21,386 bases of DNA from an uncultured Prevotella sp. (GTDB lineage: Bacteria; Bacteroidota; Bacteroidia; Bacteroidales; Bacteroidaceae): contig USDT01000042.1 of assembly GCA_900553465.1 (NCBI GenBank), forward strand, positions 1-21,386. Direction: 5' to 3'. Of this stretch, positions 1-14,554 are shown in pieces. The position numbers and the translations under genes were made by a program. The number at the start of each line of letters is the position of its first letter. The stretch's first letter is position 1. The notes under the pieces are model-generated. The model did not search any database. It saw only the letters and a list, made by a program, of their open reading frames with translations, and had not been told where the DNA came from.

Positions 1-14
1 ATACGCTAATCTAC

Positions 15-27
15 AGATGTGTATAAG
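15..27. other. Possible Tn5/Nextera adapter remnant
   Basis: The bases AGATGTGTATAAG match the first 13 bases of the 19-base Tn5 mosaic end used in tagmentation libraries (AGATGTGTATAAGAGACAG). The match lies 15 bases from the end of the window and then diverges. Seen: the 13-base identity and its position. Inferred: residual adapter at a contig end. A chance match cannot be excluded, because the last six bases of the mosaic end are absent. Confidence 0.5.
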
Positions 28-56
28 CGTAATTCCTGTTTCCCATCTAAATTGCC

Positions 57-161
57 AGTGATAGGGTAGTGATACCGTAGTGATAGAGAAAACGGGCATA
101 TATCACTAACGAAACAGCTTGAATATCAATCGATAAAAAAGAAATCAGTGATACAGTGACA
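57..161. repeat. AGTGATA short repeats, partly helically phased
   Basis: AGTGATA occurs at 57-63, 68-74 and 79-85, exactly 11 bases apart, so the copies lie on about the same face of the helix. It occurs inverted at 101-107 (TATCACT), again at 147-153, and as AGTGACA at 155-161. The arrangement resembles an array of binding sites for a repressor or a replication/partition protein, but no gene for such a protein is in view. It may also be a degenerate low-complexity stretch. The leftward open frame through it (47-280) shows no recognisable protein features. Confidence 0.4.
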
Positions 162-533
162 GAGGAAATGGGAAAAACTTGTATGATAAGGCCCTGTTTT
201 TTTCTTTGGTATATTTTATACGATTTCTGAATTTTAGTGCAGTTGCCCTGCAAAATGGCGTATCGTTCATTACGACACACTTTCTTTTATTTTATGGATA
301 ATTTTTCTTCTTTTTGCCACCTAAAGGCCGTTTTTAACTCCATTTTCCCAGCCTTCTTCTCAAAATGGCAGTTTGTTACTGCAGTATTACTTGAGTAAAA
401 GTTTATAAGTGATTATAAATAAGGATGATATGTCTGTTTGTGAAGAACAGTAAAAAAGCCCGTTTTCAAGGGGTGAAAGTTACTTGTTTTTACTTGTAAC
501 TTATTGGGAATAAAAAAGATAGTAGTCAGAAAC
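162..533. other. AT-rich gene-free leader region
   Basis: No convincing gene was found here on either strand. The sequence is AT-rich with many A and T runs and no clear Bacteroidota promoter or terminator. With the flanking repeats it forms the long non-coding region in front of the DUF6383 protein. If the invertible promoter at 546-744 is in the orientation shown, its transcript would run leftward into this stretch. Confidence 0.5.
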
Positions 534-545
534 AAAATGACTAAA

Positions 546-572
546 AAAACGTTCGTTTTAATTCGTCATTTT
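546..572. repeat. Inverted repeat, left arm of candidate invertible promoter
   Basis: This 27-base arm matches the reverse complement of 718-744 at 24 positions: AAAACGTTCGTTTT, five variable bases, then GTCATTTT. The core AAACGTTCGT is at 547-556. As I recall, this is the core type (ARACGTTCGT) found in the inverted repeats of B. fragilis promoters flipped by the serine recombinase Mpi. AAAATGACT at 534-542 adds a further copy of the outer motif in the opposite orientation, so the arm is itself a loose palindrome. Confidence 0.75.
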
Positions 573-579
573 TACTGCA

Positions 580-610
580 CAAAAATACAACTACTTTTTG
601 AACCTGCAAT
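580..610 (-). promoter_or_regulatory. Promoter inside the invertible segment, pointing away from the surface-protein gene
   Basis: On the minus strand there is ATTG (610 to 607), a 19-base spacer, and TATTTTTG (587 to 580). This fits the Bacteroidota vegetative promoter (TTTG-N19-21-TAnnTTTG), with a complete -7 box and a one-base change in the -33 box. It lies wholly between the two 27-base inverted repeats and fires leftward. After inversion about position 645, the -7 box would lie at about 703-710 and read rightward, starting a transcript near 717 with a leader of roughly 130 bases to the ATG at 848. A weaker rightward candidate exists in the present orientation (TTTG at 597-600, TATTTTTT at 623-630), but its spacer is 22 bases and the box lacks its final G. 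Confidence 0.6.
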
Positions 611-717
611 CCTTTCCACAAATATTTTTTCTTTTTCTATATTCTTTCTTATCAATCAGATAGCTTAAGGAGTACGAAAAACCGCCTTTCCGATACAAAC
701 TCTTTCGAAGACCGCCC

Positions 718-744
718 AAAATGACTAAAAAAAACGAACGTTTT
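718..744. repeat. Inverted repeat, right arm of candidate invertible promoter
   Basis: This arm pairs with 546-572 (24 of 27 positions). It reads AAAATGAC, five variable bases, then AAAACGAACGTTTT. The arms enclose 145 bases (573-717), within the usual size range of phase-variable promoter segments in Bacteroidales. No recombinase gene is in this window; enzymes of this kind often act in trans on many such sites. Confidence 0.75.
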
Positions 745-847
745 CGCTATCAAAGTACAAAAGTTAACAGATAGTCTTGCGTACATTAAATATATAAAAG
801 AAGAAATTATTCTTAATACATTATTTACTAACAAATTAATTTAAGTT

Positions 848-3800
848 ATGAACAAAAAGTTTTCTACTCTTGTCGCCAGTATGTTACTGGCAACGACAGT
901 CGGAACAGTTTCTGCACAGAACCTAGAGTTCACAAAGTCAGCTCTACCTACAAATGTTAGGGTAGAGAGTGTGGCCGACGGAAAATGCTATCAGTTGACA
1001 GACGGTTGGAATGTGTTGGTAATGCAGAAGGTTTCGACAGAAAAAGGTGATCGTTTCATCTTGAAGTATGTCCCTTATTACGCAGCCAATATAGGGGAAT
1101 CCTTGTGGTATGTGACGGTTGATAAAGACAATAAGGAAAATGGTGTGGCCTTTAAATTTATGAACTTGGCTTATAATTATCCTATCTCTTTTGATCCGGC
1201 AAAGATTCAGGATTATAAACCGGGAAAGACTTATGAAGGTTCTTATTTGGCTGGTGAAGCAGTCGCTTGGGCTTGGATGAGAAGTGAAGCCAGTGAGGGC
1301 TTAAATGTAGGTAAAACTCCGGAAGCCTATTTCAAGACAGACTCTGTGATGACTTTGATTCCGAATGCAGATGGTACGGTTGCTGCTGTCAAGTATGATG
1401 TTCGTGAGACTGACAAGCTTGCACAGTTGAACATTCGTCCGGCTGTTGCTGGTCCTGTTTGGTTAGGAAAGAACGATTTGAACAGCATGTTGCAGACACA
1501 AGATGCAACAAATGGTAAAACATCTTTCTCTTTTGAAAAAGATGTGACAGAAGGTTTGGCAAACTTGTGGTCTGCAGGTAAAGGCCATGCTTATGAGGCT
1601 GTTGATGCTGTAGGCGAAAGCACTTTGTCATATGGTGCTGTTGCTGATGCTGCTGCTGAAAAGGATGCGGCTATGCTTGCTGCCAATGAAGCTGAAAAAA
1701 AAGTAGAAGCAGCCGTGAAAGCTCTGGCTGATGCTGAATCAGAATATAATGTTTTGGCTCAGAAGATCCAGAATGTAGAGTCTGAAAAGGTTGAAAAAGG
1801 TAGAGAACTTGTGAATCAAAGTTGGATTTACAACTTTTTGAATGAAAGTGAAGATGCTACAAAACAAGCGATTTTACAGAAAAAACAATCTATCGCAACA
1901 AGTTCTGCTCTAAACGAAGAGGCCAAGAAACAACTTGCAGAATTGGCTGAAAAATTAGAGGCAGCTCAAAATGAATATAAAGATGCAGTTGCTGCCCAGA
2001 CCGCTCTTCAAAATTCTATCAATAATGCCACGGATGCATGGAATGTTGCTCTGGATGTTAAAAATAAAGCATTCGATCAGAAAAGTAGATATGCAAAGTG
2101 GGGAACAGCGATGAGGAAGTATTTCAACGAAACAAATAATGTATATTATGTCTCAGATATGGGCTATGCCCCTAATGATAAACCACAAGCATGGAATTCT
2201 TATTTCGATGCAGCTAAGGTAACTGATGAAGCAGAGAAGGAAGCCTTTGTAGAATATGGACATCGTTTGTATGCTATCTTGAAAGAAGCAAATAATGGTG
2301 TAGATATATCAATGTCTGCTTCAGCTTATAAGAGCCAAAACAATAAGGCTTTTATAAATGGTGTCAATGCTCTTAATACTGAAGAAAATGAAACCTTTGA
2401 AAAAGCTGCAGAAGCTGTTATCGCTTCAGAAGGTGCAATAGCTTCAATCTCTAAAGATTTAGATGTTGCTATTGGTGTAGCAGAGGAGAAAAAGCAAGCT
2501 GAGAAGGCTGCCAGCACAGCTTATGACGAAATGTTTGAAGCTTATGGAGTTCACAGTCAAGCTCTTGAAGAAGCAAAGAAAGAGTTGAAAGAACTTGAAG
2601 AAGAATTGGCCTCTGTTCAAGCTGAACTGAAAGAAGTTAGTGCTAAGAAGGTCGAGCTAGAAACTGCTATTTTCAACTATACGCAACAAATTGCAAGTTT
2701 GAATGAACAGTTGATGGCTTTAGATGGTGAAAAGGGGGCAGCTTATTGGACATGGGTAGACGCTCGTTATGCGCATAAGGATGCTGAACGTGCTGCTATC
2801 AAGGCTTCAGAAGTGTTTGAAAACATTCGTCTTGAAAAGTCATTTAACTGGTTATCTCTGAAAGCCGGCAAGAATGCCAAGGGCCAGGATACTTATTTAA
2901 TGGTCGACACAGCTTATCTGAACGGCTCAGCCGGTGAAGAAATTGCAGGTATCCAGCATTTAGGATTCGCTACTCGTGAACATGAAGCTGATTTCAAATC
3001 TGTCAACAACTTGGCAGCTCGCGATATCAACGGTCGCTTCAACTTCCGTTTCTTCTACTGGCCGACTCAGGACTCTTTGCGTATTGAAGCAGATGGTTAC
3101 AACGTGAAGAACGTAACGACTAAATATTGGAAGGATCGTACAAATAGTGAAATCGATATTTTTGCTACTTCTGCAAAAGGCCAAGAAAACAATCTGGTTA
3201 AGATTGCTGTATTAGGTGGTGCCCGTCGTGAAGCCACTATCGGTTCTTCCGAAGAGCTGAAAGGCACAGGTATCTATACATACAACGACCGTATCGGTTT
3301 GAGCCTCTCTCCTGCTGCTCACAATGCCGTTTTGGAACCGGGCATCTATTTCATGGATGTAGTAAACGGTGCTGATGCACAGAAGAACGGTGCTCGCTTG
3401 ATGGTTGATTTGAACGGTTGGAACTTGACAAAGGTTGCTCCGGCTGAATGGGATGTGATGAACTTCGAACACATGCCGGCCGCTAAGTGGGTTGTAAATC
3501 AGAATACGAATGAATTCGGTGGGTATCCTGAAATCTGGAACCAAGAAACAGGAGCTACTCTGAATAATGGTTCTTACAAAGTATTGGCTGATGGTAATAT
3601 CGTAATTAACTATTATTATAACAACGAAGAAGCTTGGTTGACTAATGATACGCTGAAATTGACAAAGACCGTAAGTAACCGCTTGGGCTTCTTTAACGAT
3701 GATGCCAAGAATGTAAACTATACTTTGAACTACTTGAATGTAGGCAATGACTTGGGTGTTACAATTGGCAACTCTACCGTAGGCAACGACACGATCTTAC

Positions 3801-5119
3801 GTGTATCTGCCGATGAGGCTACTAAGTTCGAACTGGTAAAATGGGGCAATGGTTATAATACCCCTATCTTCGAAAAAGACACGATCTTCCAGACTTATTA
3901 TCAGATCCGTGTAAACGATCCGTATAAGTTCGCTAACAACCAGAAATATGTTCAGGTATCTGAAGTTGGTGGTACTGAAATGATGGTAGTAACAGAAGGT
4001 GCAGAAAATGGTTCTGTATTCACTTTGAAAGAAGTGAACTGCGTAGACGGAACTCATTACTATGCATTGCTGACAGAAGGCAAGAAAGCCGGTGTGATTG
4101 ATGCAACAGGCTTGATTAAGGCTGAAAACGTGGCTACTGAATCTACAACTTCTGCTTTCGCATTGGTTGCTGATACGACTGCTCTGTATCGTGAGTTTAC
4201 AGCTGACGAATTGGGTGAAAACGGCGCAATGAAGTTCTACCGTGTGAACTCTACTGCTAAGGCTTACTTGTATGAAGGAGCTGACAACCTGCTTTGCGTA
4301 GAAGGTAAGGGTGACGATAAAGCTGAAGCATTCAATGTAATCCCGACAGGTGTCGAAAACACATTGATGCCACAGTACTTGATTGCCAAGGATGTGAACT
4401 TTGTAGTCGGTGATACAGTTCTGTGCGACGCTACTACTCACTCTCATGCAACAATAGAAGAAGCTTTGAAATGCCCGCATAGTAAAGTAACTGCTGACAC
4501 GACATTTGGTCGTTTCTTGGTGAACATGATCGACTCAGTTCCCGCTGTTAAGAAATATACTTGGGAAGGTAAATACAAGAGACTTGCATTCTTGCCGGGT
4601 TATATGACAGCTGGTAACTTAGTTCTGGATGGCACAACTCATAAAGTCGCTCTGAAGCTGAATGCTCATGATCAGGCTAAGTTCTCTTTCCGTTTGGTTA
4701 ACGAAGGATCTAACGACTTCTTGATCGAATCTGAATCTTATGGAAAGAAGACAGCGTTTGATGGCGGTATCGCTCCGTCTGCTAATCTGGGTGGTTGGGT
4801 GAAAGTACAGAACGGTGTTCCTGTCATCATCAATGACTTCGAAGCAGCTATGCAGTCTGACCTCTACAATGTCGACACTAACGCTGGTGGTGCAACAGCC
4901 AACGACGAAATCACGACTTCTGAAGTAACGATTATCGCAGGCGAAGGCAATGTTACAATCGCTAACGCTGCCGGCAAGAAGGTTGTTGTAAGCAACATCT
5001 TGGGTCAGGTAGTAGCCACTCAGGTTCTGACATCCGACAATGCTGTGATTGCTGCTCCTCAAGGCGTAGTCGTAGTAGCTGTTGAAGGTGAAGAAGCTGT
5101 AAAGGCAATCGTAAGATAA
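848..5119 (+). CDS. Large secreted coiled-coil surface protein with C-terminal DUF6383/T9SS-like sorting domain (S-layer-glycoprotein-like)
   Basis: A 1423-residue protein with a clear signal peptide (1-23, cleavage after VSA). Seen: two long Ala/Glu/Lys-rich coiled-coil stretches at about 265-415 and 535-667; a long beta-rich, Asn/Asp-rich region at about 670-1350; and a final domain from about 1358 with a GKKVVVSNILGQVV motif ending in KAIVR. That end matches my memory of DUF6383 and has the NxLGQ signature of type IX secretion sorting domains. Ten D-(S/T)-(A/I/L/V/M/T) sequons (Asp165, 687, 742, 934, 981, 1011, 1109, 1189, 1217, 1229) fit the Bacteroidales O-glycosylation motif. Known: Parabacteroides distasonis makes families of phase-variable surface glycoproteins from invertible promoters. 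Inferred: this is such a protein, switched by the segment at 546-744. The start ATG has no Shine-Dalgarno, as is usual here. The middle third is markedly more AT-rich than the C-terminal half, suggesting domain shuffling. Ligand and exact role are unknown. Confidence 0.8.
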   Translation: MNKKFSTLVASMLLATTVGTVSAQNLEFTKSALPTNVRVESVADGKCYQLTDGWNVLVMQKVSTEKGDRFILKYVPYYAANIGESLWYVTVDKDNKENGVAFKFMNLAYNYPISFDPAKIQDYKPGKTYEGSYLAGEAVAWAWMRSEASEGLNVGKTPEAYFKTDSVMTLIPNADGTVAAVKYDVRETDKLAQLNIRPAVAGPVWLGKNDLNSMLQTQDATNGKTSFSFEKDVTEGLANLWSAGKGHAYEAVDAVGESTLSYGAVADAAAEKDAAMLAANEAEKKVEAAVKALADAESEYNVLAQKIQNVESEKVEKGRELVNQSWIYNFLNESEDATKQAILQKKQSIATSSALNEEAKKQLAELAEKLEAAQNEYKDAVAAQTALQNSINNATDAWNVALDVKNKAFDQKSRYAKWGTAMRKYFNETNNVYYVSDMGYAPNDKPQAWNSYFDAAKVTDEAEKEAFVEYGHRLYAILKEANNGVDISMSASAYKSQNNKAFINGVNALNTEENETFEKAAEAVIASEGAIASISKDLDVAIGVAEEKKQAEKAASTAYDEMFEAYGVHSQALEEAKKELKELEEELASVQAELKEVSAKKVELETAIFNYTQQIASLNEQLMALDGEKGAAYWTWVDARYAHKDAERAAIKASEVFENIRLEKSFNWLSLKAGKNAKGQDTYLMVDTAYLNGSAGEEIAGIQHLGFATREHEADFKSVNNLAARDINGRFNFRFFYWPTQDSLRIEADGYNVKNVTTKYWKDRTNSEIDIFATSAKGQENNLVKIAVLGGARREATIGSSEELKGTGIYTYNDRIGLSLSPAAHNAVLEPGIYFMDVVNGADAQKNGARLMVDLNGWNLTKVAPAEWDVMNFEHMPAAKWVVNQNTNEFGGYPEIWNQETGATLNNGSYKVLADGNIVINYYYNNEEAWLTNDTLKLTKTVSNRLGFFNDDAKNVNYTLNYLNVGNDLGVTIGNSTVGNDTILRVSADEATKFELVKWGNGYNTPIFEKDTIFQTYYQIRVNDPYKFANNQKYVQVSEVGGTEMMVVTEGAENGSVFTLKEVNCVDGTHYYALLTEGKKAGVIDATGLIKAENVATESTTSAFALVADTTALYREFTADELGENGAMKFYRVNSTAKAYLYEGADNLLCVEGKGDDKAEAFNVIPTGVENTLMPQYLIAKDVNFVVGDTVLCDATTHSHATIEEALKCPHSKVTADTTFGRFLVNMIDSVPAVKKYTWEGKYKRLAFLPGYMTAGNLVLDGTTHKVALKLNAHDQAKFSFRLVNEGSNDFLIESESYGKKTAFDGGIAPSANLGGWVKVQNGVPVIINDFEAAMQSDLYNVDTNAGGATANDEITTSEVTIIAGEGNVTIANAAGKKVVVSNILGQVVATQVLTSDNAVIAAPQGVVVVAVEGEEAVKAIVR

Positions 5120-5136
5120 GAATAGAGGAATAGTTT

Positions 5137-5156
5137 GGAGTGGCAGCGGCCACTCC
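5137..5156 (+). terminator. Hairpin 17 bases after the surface-protein stop
   Basis: GGAGTGGC (5137-5144) and GCCACTCC (5149-5156) form a perfect 8-base-pair stem with a 4-base loop. No T-run follows, so it may be a 3' stabilising hairpin or a weak terminator. The stronger terminator is further on, at 5321-5367. Confidence 0.45.
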
Positions 5157-5320
5157 CTCTATATAGTAATTTATAATCAAATAATTCTAAAATGTTTGGC
5201 CGCGTGCCGTGCAAACGGTAATTACCCTGTGACAGGCGAACAAGCGGTTTAATATTAATAATATTAAAGTATTGAAATAAAGTTCATTCTGCTGTGAGCC
5301 TGTGAAGGTGTAAGGCAGAT

Positions 5321-5367
5321 AAAAAAACAAGCCCCGGGGACGGTTTCGTCTTCGGGGCTTTGTTTTC
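5321..5367. terminator. Bidirectional rho-independent terminator between convergent genes
   Basis: An A-run leads into GCCCCG (5331-5336), which pairs with CGGGGC (5353-5358); inner bases extend the stem, and TTTGTTTT follows. Read on the minus strand, the same hairpin ends in a T-run (TTGTTTTTTT). It lies 8 bases past the stop codon of the leftward peptidase and about 200 bases past the rightward surface protein, so it probably serves both. Confidence 0.85.
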
Positions 5368-5374
5368 AACTTTT

Positions 5375-7555
5375 TTACAAAGACTTTTCCGGATACATGG
5401 CATTCCACCATTCCGGTTGGTTCTTGAGCCATTTGGCGAACCAAGCGTAGATGGTTTTGTTCCATTCGGCACGCTTCTTATAGTCCAGTATCTGGTGGTT
5501 TTGTCCTACTACTTGTACGAAGGCCGTAGGTTTGCCTAACAGTTTCAGGGCTGTAAACATCTGGATGCTTTCACCTACCGGGACGTTCGTGTCGACCGTG
5601 CCATGCAGGAAAAGGATCGGGGTGTTGATTTTGTCGGCATTGAACAGCGGGCTTTGCAACGTGTACATATCCCGTGCGTTCCAGGGATAGCTGTTTGCGC
5701 TTGCCAAAGCACTATAGGAGTATCCCCAGTAACCTTCGCCCCAATAGCTGGTGATGTCGCTGATTCCGGCATGAGAGATGGCGGCGGCAAAGATATCCGT
5801 TTTTGTTTGCAGGTATTGTGTCATGAAGCCACCGTAGGATGCCCCTATGCAACCGATCTTTTTAGCGTCGACAAAGTTGTGTTCGGCACAGAATTTCTTT
5901 GTTCCTTCGATGATCTCGTCTCCTGTACGCTGTCCCCATGCATTTACGTGGCGGGCGGAGAACTCCAGGCCGAAGCCGGTTGCTCCGCTGGGCTGGATGA
6001 TATAAACGATGTAGCCCAATGCCGCATATACGTGCGACGGATACCGGTTTTCGAGTGAACGTTCCGTCGGACTGGTTCCCCCGTAGTAGTTCACGATCAG
6101 CGGATATTTCTTGTTAGGATCGAAATGGGGCGGCAGGTAATAACGACCGTAGATCGTGTCGCCGGCAGCTGCCCGGAAATTCCAATCGTGCACTTCGCCG
6201 AGGGTGATATCTTTCAAGATGCCGGCGGAAAGATCTTTCAGACAGACAGAACTTTTCTTTTTCAGGTTGACGGAATAGAGGCGTTGCGAGTTGGAGGCGC
6301 TTTCGCCGAAATAAACCAGTTCGGGAGTTGTTTCGGCAATCGTAAAATCCGAGAGGATATCCTCTTTTAACGGGATGGGGAGGATTTTCCCGGTTGACGG
6401 ATTCAAGACGTACAGGCGTACGCAATCCTTATCTTCTCCCTGCAGGTAGATCTGTTTATCACCTTTGTTCCAAACGAAGTTTTGAACCGATGGATTAAAA
6501 TCTTTGGTGACAGGATTTGCCTGTTTGCTTGCCGGATCGTAAAGGAAGAGCTGCCCGTCGGCCATATTGGAAGTCTGCCCCGGTGCTATCTTCAGCCCTA
6601 TTTTATTGAAAGCCTCTCCAGATGCGGCAATTGCCAGCATCTTGCCGTCGGGCGAGAATTGGGCATAGCTGATGAACGGATCTTTCAAAAGGAGTTCCGT
6701 ATCCAGTGTTTGCAGATCCATCCGATAGAGCAAAGTAGTCGAAAACGGACGTTTCGTCAGCTCCCGTTCGCTACAAGTGAAGAGCAGATAGCGGCCGTCG
6801 TCGGAAATATCGTTGATGGAAGTCGAAGTGTGCCCGTAGGTAAGGCGTTGGAACACTCCGGTTGCCAGGTCGTACTTATGGATGAATGAACGGGTACGCC
6901 ATCCCGGCTGGCGGTCGTCAGGCACAAGGATTTCCTGAAGGTCTTCCCCTTTCTTCGGTCCTTCCTCGATGATGTTGAACAGCAGGAAATCCTCTGTCGG
7001 GGCAAAGCTGAACCAACCGTCGGGAAGGTTGTGGGCAAGGACTTCCTCTGCTTGGGTTGCAGGGTCGATCGTGACAAGTTCCTTTCCCTGCATGCCTTTG
7101 CGGGTATAGTAAAGACGGTTGCTGCGGGGCATCCAGCTATAATGATGGTTGTTGCTTTCCATTAAAACCTGCCCTGTGGCCCGGTCGGTCACTTGCTGGA
7201 AGGATTCGGTATCGCCACCGGGATAAGTCGTCTGGTAGGCGGTCAACAGGTATTTGCCGTTGGGGGAGAGGCTGACGGAACGAATGCGTGTGCCATCGAA
7301 GACATCGCTCAAAGTGTAACGCTTCTCTGGATCGGTTGTCGCCGTGACAACGGCTTTGCTGTCCGTCTTGAAGGTGACTTTCGGAATGTGGTTCGTTTCG
7401 TCCGGGGCTGTAAGATATTTGATTACGACTTCGTAGCGGCGGGGTTCGAGTGTGAGCTTGAGCTCGCCGTTGGCGGGTGTCTGTTTCTCGTTGTCGATAT
7501 ATACTTCGTAATGCTCTGGTCCGCTGATCTGATCGGGAGGCCGTCCTGTCTTCTT
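5375..7555 (-). CDS. S9-family (prolyl-oligopeptidase-type) serine peptidase, 5'-truncated
   Basis: The frame is open leftward from an in-frame TGA at 7556-7558, giving 726 visible residues. The part after the TTG at 7310-7312 is 645 residues. Numbered from that TTG: a beta-propeller-like region with repeated SPNG/SPDG and SDDG strands (about 1-370), then an alpha/beta-hydrolase domain with nucleophile Ser492 (GASYGG), Asp574 (GTVDTNVP) and His606 (GQNHQ). This is the expected order for family S9 exported peptidases that cleave peptides, often after proline. The TTG is not a believable start: the 81 codons upstream continue as good coding sequence (a beta-strand-rich EVYIDN segment) like the N-terminal accessory region of Bacteroidales homologues. 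The signal peptide and roughly the first 100 residues are missing, because the sequence changes at about 7530-7558. It converges on the surface-protein gene. Substrate unknown. Confidence 0.85.
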   Translation of the reverse strand, partial: KKTGRPPDQISGPEHYEVYIDNEKQTPANGELKLTLEPRRYEVVIKYLTAPDETNHIPKVTFKTDSKAVVTATTDPEKRYTLSDVFDGTRIRSVSLSPNGKYLLTAYQTTYPGGDTESFQQVTDRATGQVLMESNNHHYSWMPRSNRLYYTRKGMQGKELVTIDPATQAEEVLAHNLPDGWFSFAPTEDFLLFNIIEEGPKKGEDLQEILVPDDRQPGWRTRSFIHKYDLATGVFQRLTYGHTSTSINDISDDGRYLLFTCSERELTKRPFSTTLLYRMDLQTLDTELLLKDPFISYAQFSPDGKMLAIAASGEAFNKIGLKIAPGQTSNMADGQLFLYDPASKQANPVTKDFNPSVQNFVWNKGDKQIYLQGEDKDCVRLYVLNPSTGKILPIPLKEDILSDFTIAETTPELVYFGESASNSQRLYSVNLKKKSSVCLKDLSAGILKDITLGEVHDWNFRAAAGDTIYGRYYLPPHFDPNKKYPLIVNYYGGTSPTERSLENRYPSHVYAALGYIVYIIQPSGATGFGLEFSARHVNAWGQRTGDEIIEGTKKFCAEHNFVDAKKIGCIGASYGGFMTQYLQTKTDIFAAAISHAGISDITSYWGEGYWGYSYSALASANSYPWNARDMYTLQSPLFNADKINTPILFLHGTVDTNVPVGESIQMFTALKLLGKPTAFVQVVGQNHQILDYKKRAEWNKTIYAWFAKWLKNQPEWWNAMYPEKSL

Positions 7556-12887: not shown

Positions 12888-13457
12888 TTATAATCTGTTG
12901 TTTATTTTGTTTAAAATGTTGTTAATCTGTAAATCTATGTCATGAAAGCCGTCGTTCACAATCTCGAAATCGCTGCGTGCCACCACTTCCTGCTGCGGCA
13001 GCTGACGGTCTATCCACTCCAGCGCCTGCTCGCGTGTGATGTTGTCGCGCGCCATTATGCGCTTTATGCGCAGTTCGACGGGCGCCGTGACGCAGACGAC
13101 AAAGTCGAAAGGCACACGTTTGTCGAAACCGCTGTCGAAGAGAATGGCGCTTTCAAGCCACTCGATGTCGGAAGACATGTAGTCGGCGGCTACTGCTGGA
13201 TGAACAATATCGGCCACAGCGCTGTTGTTGGCGTCGCTCGCAAGGAGAAACGCGGCAAGCACCTGTTTCTGCAACACGTCTCCTTTGTACACGCTGTCGC
13301 CTACAAGACGGCGGAGCGCATCGCGCAGTGCGGGTGATGTGCGCATAAGTCTTTTGGCGGCCGCATCGCAGTCGTAAACCTCAATGCCGCGTCGGTTGAG
13401 CGACTTGCACACAAATGACTTGCCGGCACCAATGCCTCCTGTTATCGCAATTTTCAT
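12888..13457 (-). CDS. coaE: Dephospho-CoA kinase
   Basis: 189 residues, normal family length. P-loop GGIGAGKS at 7-14, DCDAAAKRLM at about 29-38, and the lid region with RIMARDNITREQA. It phosphorylates the 3'-hydroxyl of dephospho-CoA, the last step of coenzyme A synthesis, in the cytoplasm. It lies fourth in the leftward operon, between ybbR (116 bases upstream) and the DUF5606 gene. The 116-base gap contains a hairpin (CAGGCAGCC at 13516-13524 with GGCTGTCTG at 13529-13537, one G-U pair) but no T-run. Confidence 0.93.
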   Translation of the reverse strand: MKIAITGGIGAGKSFVCKSLNRRGIEVYDCDAAAKRLMRTSPALRDALRRLVGDSVYKGDVLQKQVLAAFLLASDANNSAVADIVHPAVAADYMSSDIEWLESAILFDSGFDKRVPFDFVVCVTAPVELRIKRIMARDNITREQALEWIDRQLPQQEVVARSDFEIVNDGFHDIDLQINNILNKINNRL

Positions 13458-13573
13458 TTTTCTGTTGTCTGTTATCGGTGTCGCTCCGGTGTTGCAAACG
13501 CAGTGTCAGACTTGTCAGGCAGCCTTGCGGCTGTCTGTCGGGCCGGGCATCGCCTGCCGTAGAACGCATACCC

Positions 13574-14554
13574 TTACTGCTGTTCCACCAAATAATCCAC
13601 CTGATTTATCTCAAGCTGCGCATTGCGCACCATGTAAGGACTCTTCACCAAGTGAAGATCGCACTTGTCGGAAGCATGTCCCATCACTTCGTTATAATCC
13701 ACCACAACAACAAACTGATCTGCCTTCACCGTACGGAACATACTTGCTCCGACTGTGAATCTTACATTGACATGCGACGGGAATGTGCGCAGCACCTTTC
13801 CATCGGGCAGGTTGATGGCCTTGATAGGCACGGACACGCTCTCCTCTGTGAGGATGTCAGGATACAGTCCGATGCGGACTGTGGACGGAACGCATTTCAC
13901 TCCGTGTATCTTGGCTATCGGCACTTCCTTTATTACGGTATCCTCGAAATTGACAATGCGTATCGGTTCCGTCTTCACGTAGCGTATGCTGTCGAGCATT
14001 TTCCTGCTCGCATACACTGTGACTTTCTCCGGCCAGAAGCGTGTAGACGCAAGATAATAAGACCGGCCTGGTACAACCGACCCGTCCATACGCACCGGCA
14101 CCGTCTTGGAAGCGCCGTAATTGAAGTAAAAATCAAGTTTGTCGGGATTGACAGACACTATCTTCGACGAACCCATAAGCTGCTGATAGACAAACTTCTG
14201 TATATCGGCAGACGGCACAAGTCCGTATCCTGTCTGTTTGTTGGCGTATGCTCCGAAATTTATCTTTATCGGCTGCATACGTCTGCTGTAAATGTAAGTG
14301 ACAAGCGTAAAACCTTTATCACGCACAGTCACCTTCACTGTGGAGTCCATCTCTGTGGTAAGTACCACATTCTTTGGGACATTGGTAAGCGACATCGGCA
14401 CTGTTATTTCACGCTCGTATGTCTCATTAAGAGCCATCATAAGCCAGAAGATACTGCTTAGAGCCAGAAAAAACAAAAAAATCAGAAACTCCTTGTTCAA
14501 GAATCCGAACAAGAAGTTCCTGATGTTTTTATAATCATGCGTCAATCGCTCCAT
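13574..14554 (-). CDS. ybbR: YbbR-like domain protein
   Basis: 326 residues with a single membrane segment at about 21-43, followed by repeated beta-rich YbbR-type units running to the C-terminus. Topology is probably anchored in the inner membrane with the repeats outside. In Firmicutes YbbR (CdaR) regulates the diadenylate cyclase; in Bacteroidota the role is not settled. The yajC-ybbR-coaE order is widespread in Bacteroidales. Gap to yajC is 45 bases. Confidence 0.85.
   Translation of the reverse strand: MERLTHDYKNIRNFLFGFLNKEFLIFLFFLALSSIFWLMMALNETYEREITVPMSLTNVPKNVVLTTEMDSTVKVTVRDKGFTLVTYIYSRRMQPIKINFGAYANKQTGYGLVPSADIQKFVYQQLMGSSKIVSVNPDKLDFYFNYGASKTVPVRMDGSVVPGRSYYLASTRFWPEKVTVYASRKMLDSIRYVKTEPIRIVNFEDTVIKEVPIAKIHGVKCVPSTVRIGLYPDILTEESVSVPIKAINLPDGKVLRTFPSHVNVRFTVGASMFRTVKADQFVVVVDYNEVMGHASDKCDLHLVKSPYMVRNAQLEINQVDYLVEQQ

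Follow-up and report, generated by a model that had tools for sequence, protein, structure and literature searches.

A candidate Mpi-type invertible promoter, captured in the OFF orientation upstream of a DUF6383 gene in a probable Parabacteroides sequence

The window, that is, the whole stretch of 21,386 bases that was analysed, contains an ORF of 1423 aa (positions 848..5119, plus strand) preceded by two inverted repeats located at 546-572 and 718-744. Each repeat comprises 27 nt, the two being complementary at 24 of the 27 positions and separated by 145 nt, and they constitute the sole 27-nt pair with at least 24 matches within approximately 400 bp in the window. A first-pass annotation of the sequence had described the repeats with this similarity and spacing, and both their positions and their spacing were reproduced; the best pair recovered from 100 dinucleotide shuffles of window positions 1-1000 reached 21/27 (mean 18.6), and none attained 24. 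The left repeat is the inner portion of a near-palindrome (534..572; AAAATGAC-N4-AAAACG-TT-CGTTTT-N5-GTCATTTT), the putative gene-distal recombination site, and the right repeat (718..744), whose outer half-site is not palindromic, would be the gene-proximal one. The 14-bp core AAAACG-TT-CGTTTT is present in both arms (546-559 and 731-744), perfect and matched, with central dinucleotides TT (552-553) and AA (737-738) that agree as TT/TT when read inwards. The sequence AAAACGTTCGTTTT, found in both arms, fits the Mpi core ARACGTTCGTN, and the repeat core AAACGTTCGT, which the first-pass annotation had assigned to the Mpi type, agrees with that consensus as quoted in passages of PMC8375218. Searches with the site pattern at up to three mismatches yielded 25 matches in the nearest genome (G001, see below), some of them one site counted on both strands, and the reversed control pattern gave none in that genome. 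From the dinucleotide pattern, the exchange points are predicted at 553 and 737, which would delimit an invertible segment of 185 bp (553..737) that extends from one central dinucleotide to the other.

Between the repeats lies a predicted promoter directed away from the ORF. It consists of an ATTG -33 element (607..610, minus strand) and a TATTTTTG -7 element (580..587, minus strand) separated by a 19-nt spacer, and hence reads leftwards from 610 to 580, in agreement with the leftward Bacteroidota promoter claimed for this interval. The -33/-7 pattern applied here is that of Bacteroidota promoters; ATTG-N19-TATTTTTG is its sole match on both strands of 450-860, and it remained the single match on both strands of 1-7532 when up to one mismatch was allowed. 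The further claim that no comparable rightward promoter is visible between 573 and the ATG at 848 is borne out by the pattern, which gives only the leftward match in 450-860. Reversal about position 645 (x -> 1290 - x) would transfer the -33 element to 680-683 and the -7 element to 703-710 of the plus strand, the latter as originally calculated. A conserved 26-bp box (638..663; TATATTCTTTCTTATCAATCAGATAG) is situated upstream of the promoter.

The 1423-aa protein carries a DUF6383 domain at residues 1349-1422 (E 2.7e-30 in a profile search), as had been proposed for the protein downstream of the switch, and its N-terminus looks, by eye, like a signal peptide. On the basis of this signal-like N-terminus, the DUF6383 domain and the literature, the protein is predicted to be located at the cell surface. 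A protein search retrieved relatives of up to 100% identity among the best 120 of 409 matches, the named ones among those 120 being from P. merdae (47-48%), and a contig scan with the same protein yielded 26 stretches that matched a pattern, none of which was confirmed. The nearest genome encodes the same 1423-aa ORF and, to the left of the repeats, shows no ORF of at least 120 aa across 1.2 kb; thus, the captured orientation drives no evident gene.

Window positions 1-7532 align to the closed genome G001 (4,377,447 bases), which is the nearest to the window among the genomes compared and identical to it over the switch locus, at 99.947% identity, with 4 mismatches, no gap and the same orientation. 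The remainder of the window, beyond position 7532, did not align to the 37 kb of G001 with which it was compared, and the nearest genome shares 35% of the words of the window, a value consistent with a split near 7532. An S9 peptidase frame (5375-7312 as listed) continues past the join in G001 and hits a stop in the window. On the far side of the join, window positions 12888-14554 gave one match in 59 genomes, of 35 bases in G031, and among the 120 matches listed for the NusB protein encoded there the closest relatives show 92% identity and the named ones belong to Prevotella, Prevotellaceae and Hoylesella. The contig is therefore described here as probably chimeric at about 7532/7533, with a Parabacteroides part followed by a Prevotellaceae-like part, and the switch and the DUF6383 gene lie wholly within the former. 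The best E value of the locus is 3.1e-220 in G001, versus 1.9e-9, a weak match, in G016, which we take to be P. distasonis ATCC 8503. The switch thus probably belongs to a Parabacteroides of a species other than P. distasonis, so that, in the parallel drawn by the first-pass annotation with P. distasonis, the genus stands and the species probably does not. A metagenome-assembled genome labelled P. distasonis (SIG124) carries sites of the Mpi-type pattern.

The DUF6383 gene of the window has numerous relatives in the nearest genome, where 13 DUF6383 matches exceed the cut-off, 10 of them scoring at least 92 bits in frames of 843-1424 aa. Nine of these genes carry the promoter unit, facing the gene (ON) in two cases and away from it (OFF) in seven, in line with the suggestion that further copies of the repeat would be found before DUF6383 genes. 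The tenth large gene (2641826) shows no core at up to two mismatches within the surrounding 12 kb. To extend this comparison, loci (designated by L-numbers) were taken from eight genomes and from 37 stretches of named genomes, and a promoter unit beside the start of a family gene, recognized by its N-terminal motif, was scored at 50 of them, DUF6383 being profile-checked in G001 and the window. Twelve of these units are ON and 38 OFF, counts that do not represent a population ratio since most loci were selected because they resemble an OFF copy. Both sites are present at 42 loci (5 ON, 37 OFF), and their dinucleotides agree in 40; the unequal ones are L039 and L072, and those of L039 also agree once the core picked in the repeat-pair search is used. 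Eight loci were scored without a site pair: seven are ON, for the remaining one (L043) the repeat-pair search gave a weaker pair, and none of the eight is clearly fixed OFF. A separate tally of 54 units, with duplicates removed, gave 37 OFF and 5 ON with a pair, 1 OFF and 8 ON without one, and 3 OFF with unmatched sites. That loci devoid of a pair face their gene supports the promoter assignment.

One DUF6383 gene whose promoter faces it in the absence of a site pair is syntenic in G001, G014, G021 and G003, and its counterpart in the SIG124 genome has the sites and is OFF; likewise, L065 of G032 is ON without a pair, whereas L086 of P. acidifaciens is OFF with one. At least one paralogue thus appears to be locked in the ON state because it has no site pair. 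As a separate observation, a block of 858 bp that precedes this fixed-ON gene is reversed between L028 (reverse strand, 6288-7141) of G001 and L051 (5052-5909) of P. massiliensis, and is perhaps another invertible segment.

The 26-bp box adjoins the promoter in this family. Using TATATYCTTTCTTATCAATYAGATAG at up to two mismatches, eight copies were located in G001, all eight in DUF6383 switches, and the box was present in nine of 38 genus genomes; the reversed control produced no match. Recognizable but more diverged copies persist at loci without the site pair, for which reason the box is read as a probable activator or UP-type transcription element and not as part of the recombination site; a role as a recombination enhancer is disfavoured on the same grounds.

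To examine the sites themselves, a repeat-pair search that ignored the two central bases was performed, and 45 pairs were retained after identical segments had been removed. The central dinucleotide, read inwards, is equal in both arms of 43 pairs. The two unequal pairs (L022 5216-5454 and L036 6225-6436) were dropped as off-register, each re-using an arm of a true pair. When partners were shuffled over the 45 pairs, 13.8 equal dinucleotides were obtained on average and 25 at most, figures that serve as a guide and not as a probability because the loci are partly related by descent. The 43 true pairs fall into the classes TA (20), AT (12), TT (5), AA (5) and GT (1), with a core-to-core spacing of 184-186 in 26 of them, and in 35 of the 43 segments (A/G)TTG-N19-TATTTTTG sits 14-15 nt inwards from the arm. 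Variability over the 86 arms is greatest at core positions 7-8 (commonest letter in 50 of 86 at each), yet these agree in 43/43 pairs; position 14, the next most variable (65/86), agrees in 30/43. Orthologous loci mostly keep their class, although one locus that is AT/AT in G001, G014, P. acidifaciens and G032 (the last with weaker flank support) is AA/AA in G003, both arms having changed. In serine recombination, strand exchange takes place across a 2-bp centre, which has to be identical in the two sites, and a match of this kind fits serine rather than tyrosine enzymes. The agreement of the arms at their most variable bases is thus the expected signature of a serine recombinase whose overlap is 2 bp. 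No earlier mention of this matched-dinucleotide pattern was found in open-licence papers.

Three PF00239 proteins are encoded in G001. One of them (373734-374354) scores 316.6 on the NCBIfam model NF009949 of the Mpi family (cut-off 272), and so represents, in the nearest genome, the Mpi-like serine recombinase that the first-pass annotation had proposed to look for; among the 120 relatives listed for it, most of the named ones are annotated as master DNA invertase Mpi and the others as DNA invertase Pin-like, and the PDB entries closest to it in sequence are DNA-invertases. Sites at up to one mismatch occur in 16 of the 38 genus genomes (G013 and G030 having one match each), and the control site pattern matched once among the 38, in G027. 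An Mpi-family homologue of at least 72% identity is present in 15 of the 16 site-bearing genomes, no close one being found in the remaining genome, G005 (490 contigs). Seven of the 22 genomes without sites at this threshold carry a full-length Mpi homologue of at least 68%, and another, G004, carries one of 67% over residues 1-154. This distribution favours the Mpi-family protein as the enzyme, and the recombinase acting on the window switch is most likely a chromosomal Mpi-family invertase encoded elsewhere in the genome.

An inverton worked by a different recombinase, be it a tyrosine enzyme or either of the two further short serine recombinases of G001, is unlikely, even if some observations lean that way. 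All three PF00239 proteins of G001 match the Mpi-family model, but the other two do so below the cut-off (187.8 and 185.3), which is passed by the 373734-374354 protein alone. In G005, sites occur alongside relatives of these two proteins (one at 56%, the other at 72% over part of its length in a broken frame) and not alongside a close Mpi homologue; against this, five of the 16 site-bearing genomes (G003, G008, G023, G030 and G032) encode nothing above 38% identity to either, an absence that is not firm given that these assemblies are 81-90% complete. For a tyrosine enzyme, the matching 2-bp centre is the adverse evidence.

Reversal of a segment was observed directly in the comparison of L022 (G001 2845400-2845599, ON) with the syntenic L041 of G014 (OFF), whose flanks align plus/plus and whose segment aligns plus/minus, the reversed stretch covering 207 bp at 86% identity. 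When the segment was reversed by script between the central dinucleotides, identity rose to 310/348 aligned bases, as against 248/329 before the reversal. Flank similarity, weaker than for this pair, assigns two further counterparts, L049 of G021, which is ON, and L098 of P. acidifaciens (flank support of 623-648 bits), which is OFF. The reversed segment was thus seen at a paralogous locus across species; the window locus and its copy in G001 share a single orientation (OFF), and flipping of the window's own locus is what we infer from its relatives. That single orientation, together with the missing outer half-palindrome of the right site, could be taken to indicate a decayed switch, formerly invertible and now fixed OFF, leaving the gene silent in this strain. 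We regard such decay as decidedly improbable, since both 14-bp cores are perfect and matched, L022, with similarly one-sided sites, has a flipped counterpart in G014, and seven of the eight loci scored without a site pair face their gene. The notion that the repeats are merely a regulator-binding palindrome or an RNA hairpin, without inversion, draws on the nearly palindromic core, as operators often have, and on the same single orientation of the locus, but is barely credible in view of the segment reversed between the arms at the syntenic locus and of the agreement of the two most variable core bases in 43/43 pairs, a match that an operator does not need.

Taken together, the paralogues that face both ways, the syntenic locus flipped between species, the matched dinucleotides and the Mpi-family gene in G001 make it very likely that the segment is, as first annotated, an Mpi-type invertible promoter before a DUF6383 gene, captured OFF. 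In the mechanism that we propose from these sequences, a serine invertase, most likely of the Mpi family, would bind the cores at 546-559 and 731-744, cut around the matching TT dinucleotide and rejoin 553-737 in reverse. In the captured orientation, the promoter and its upstream 26-bp box would fire leftwards, leaving the DUF6383 gene OFF; once flipped, with the -7 element at 703-710, transcription would start near the right repeat, approximately 130 nt before the ATG at 848. This predicted start site and the expected effect on DUF6383 expression follow from the geometry of the segment, and the genome would contain several DUF6383 genes, that of this locus among them, each of which is switched individually.

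On a broader scale, we tentatively propose, as an idea that falls a little short of an even chance, that one Mpi invertase serves many surface-protein promoters, with the dinucleotides (TA, AT, TT, AA, GT) acting as addresses. Matching arms would flip, the classes would be insulated from one another, loci of the same class could trade segments or rearrange, and both arms would have to change in step; at least one member, permanently ON, would provide a default surface protein beside the switchable set. Some paralogous promoter segments within one genome are nearly identical, as in L022 15400-15599 and L025 8406-8605 (97%) or L053 6138-6337 and 12539-12738 (95%). The L022 and L025 segments of G001 are 97% alike, versus 86% and 87% to their own G014 orthologues, and the L047 and L049 segments of G021 are 94% alike; paralogues closer than orthologues hint at exchange between loci. 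Strict trading within a class was also considered: the two cases in G001 and G021 fit, but in G003 two loci on a single contig, one TT and the other TA, share 95%, and this idea is only suggestive.

Sites of this type were also observed outside the DUF6383 family. Sites with a TA centre flank a segment before what appears, by eye, to be an exopolysaccharide gene cluster in three genomes (L031 6639-6825, L052 5886-6071 and L111 5532-5718), so that a glycan locus may likewise be under the control of this invertase. In G014, a TT/TT pair whose two sites are nearly full palindromes (L045 6066-6244) precedes the gene of a 633-aa protein, regulator-like as judged by eye, and the -33/-7 promoter pattern gave no match inside this segment. 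Single exact sites occur in contigs labelled as Lachnospiraceae and Bacilli metagenome-assembled genomes (L092 and L095), in which a pair search of the available contig DNA gave no site pair. One scan of viral contigs for a phage link returned no exact site.

These observations extend Mpi-type promoter switching to DUF6383 secreted proteins across several Parabacteroides species and offer, in the matching of central dinucleotides, a test for working invertons that needs only their sequence. They also open two questions to testing: by what means a single global invertase can act on many promoters and still leave the chromosome in order, and whether the fixed-ON paralogue supplies a default surface. 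The switches may, in addition, bear on phage susceptibility and on host recognition of a common gut commensal.

Both Mpi-type promoter inversion and phase-variable surface glycoproteins of Parabacteroides are already known, and the window locus is a further case. Phase-variable S-layer-like glycoproteins of Parabacteroides distasonis, DgpA and DgpC, were reportedly described by Fletcher et al. in 2007. The available passages of PMC2943079 and PMC8400631 refer to this phase-variable S-layer-like family, and the latter attributes its switching to a DNA-inversion mechanism. The window locus resembles the Dgp family in the genus Parabacteroides, in a large, presumably secreted protein and in its predicted switching by inversion; the window species is probably another one, and the likeness is one of description in those passages. 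In B. thetaiotaomicron, the S-layer protein BT1927 also has an invertible promoter ahead of its gene, inactive in most wild-type cells according to extracts of PMC12118408 and PMC12578637. The extracts nevertheless describe another repeat (CCGTTACCTABVRAGTAAC), situated close to a gene for a site-specific integrase, and name tyrosine-type invertases for capsule repeats near-identical to that of BT1927 (PMC12118408, PMC12578637). The Mpi-controlled capsule promoters resemble the window switch in having short repeats with the core, a similar segment length and an Mpi-family homologue: in PMC8375218, the repeat core is ARACGTTCGTN in the capsule loci of B. fragilis, where Mpi inverts at least thirteen regions (PMC5903667), and GTTCGTTTAA in B. 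intestinalis, whose promoter segments measure 183-186 bp and whose genome encodes Mpi-family invertase homologues. The approximate transcription start is placed there inside the proximal repeat, as predicted for the window (PMC8375218). The repeats in those passages are described for capsule loci, whereas the window switch would control a single large DUF6383 gene, the likeness being one of description; relative to the capsule promoters as described there, the window switch adds the half-site GTCATTTT and the 26-bp box inside the segment.
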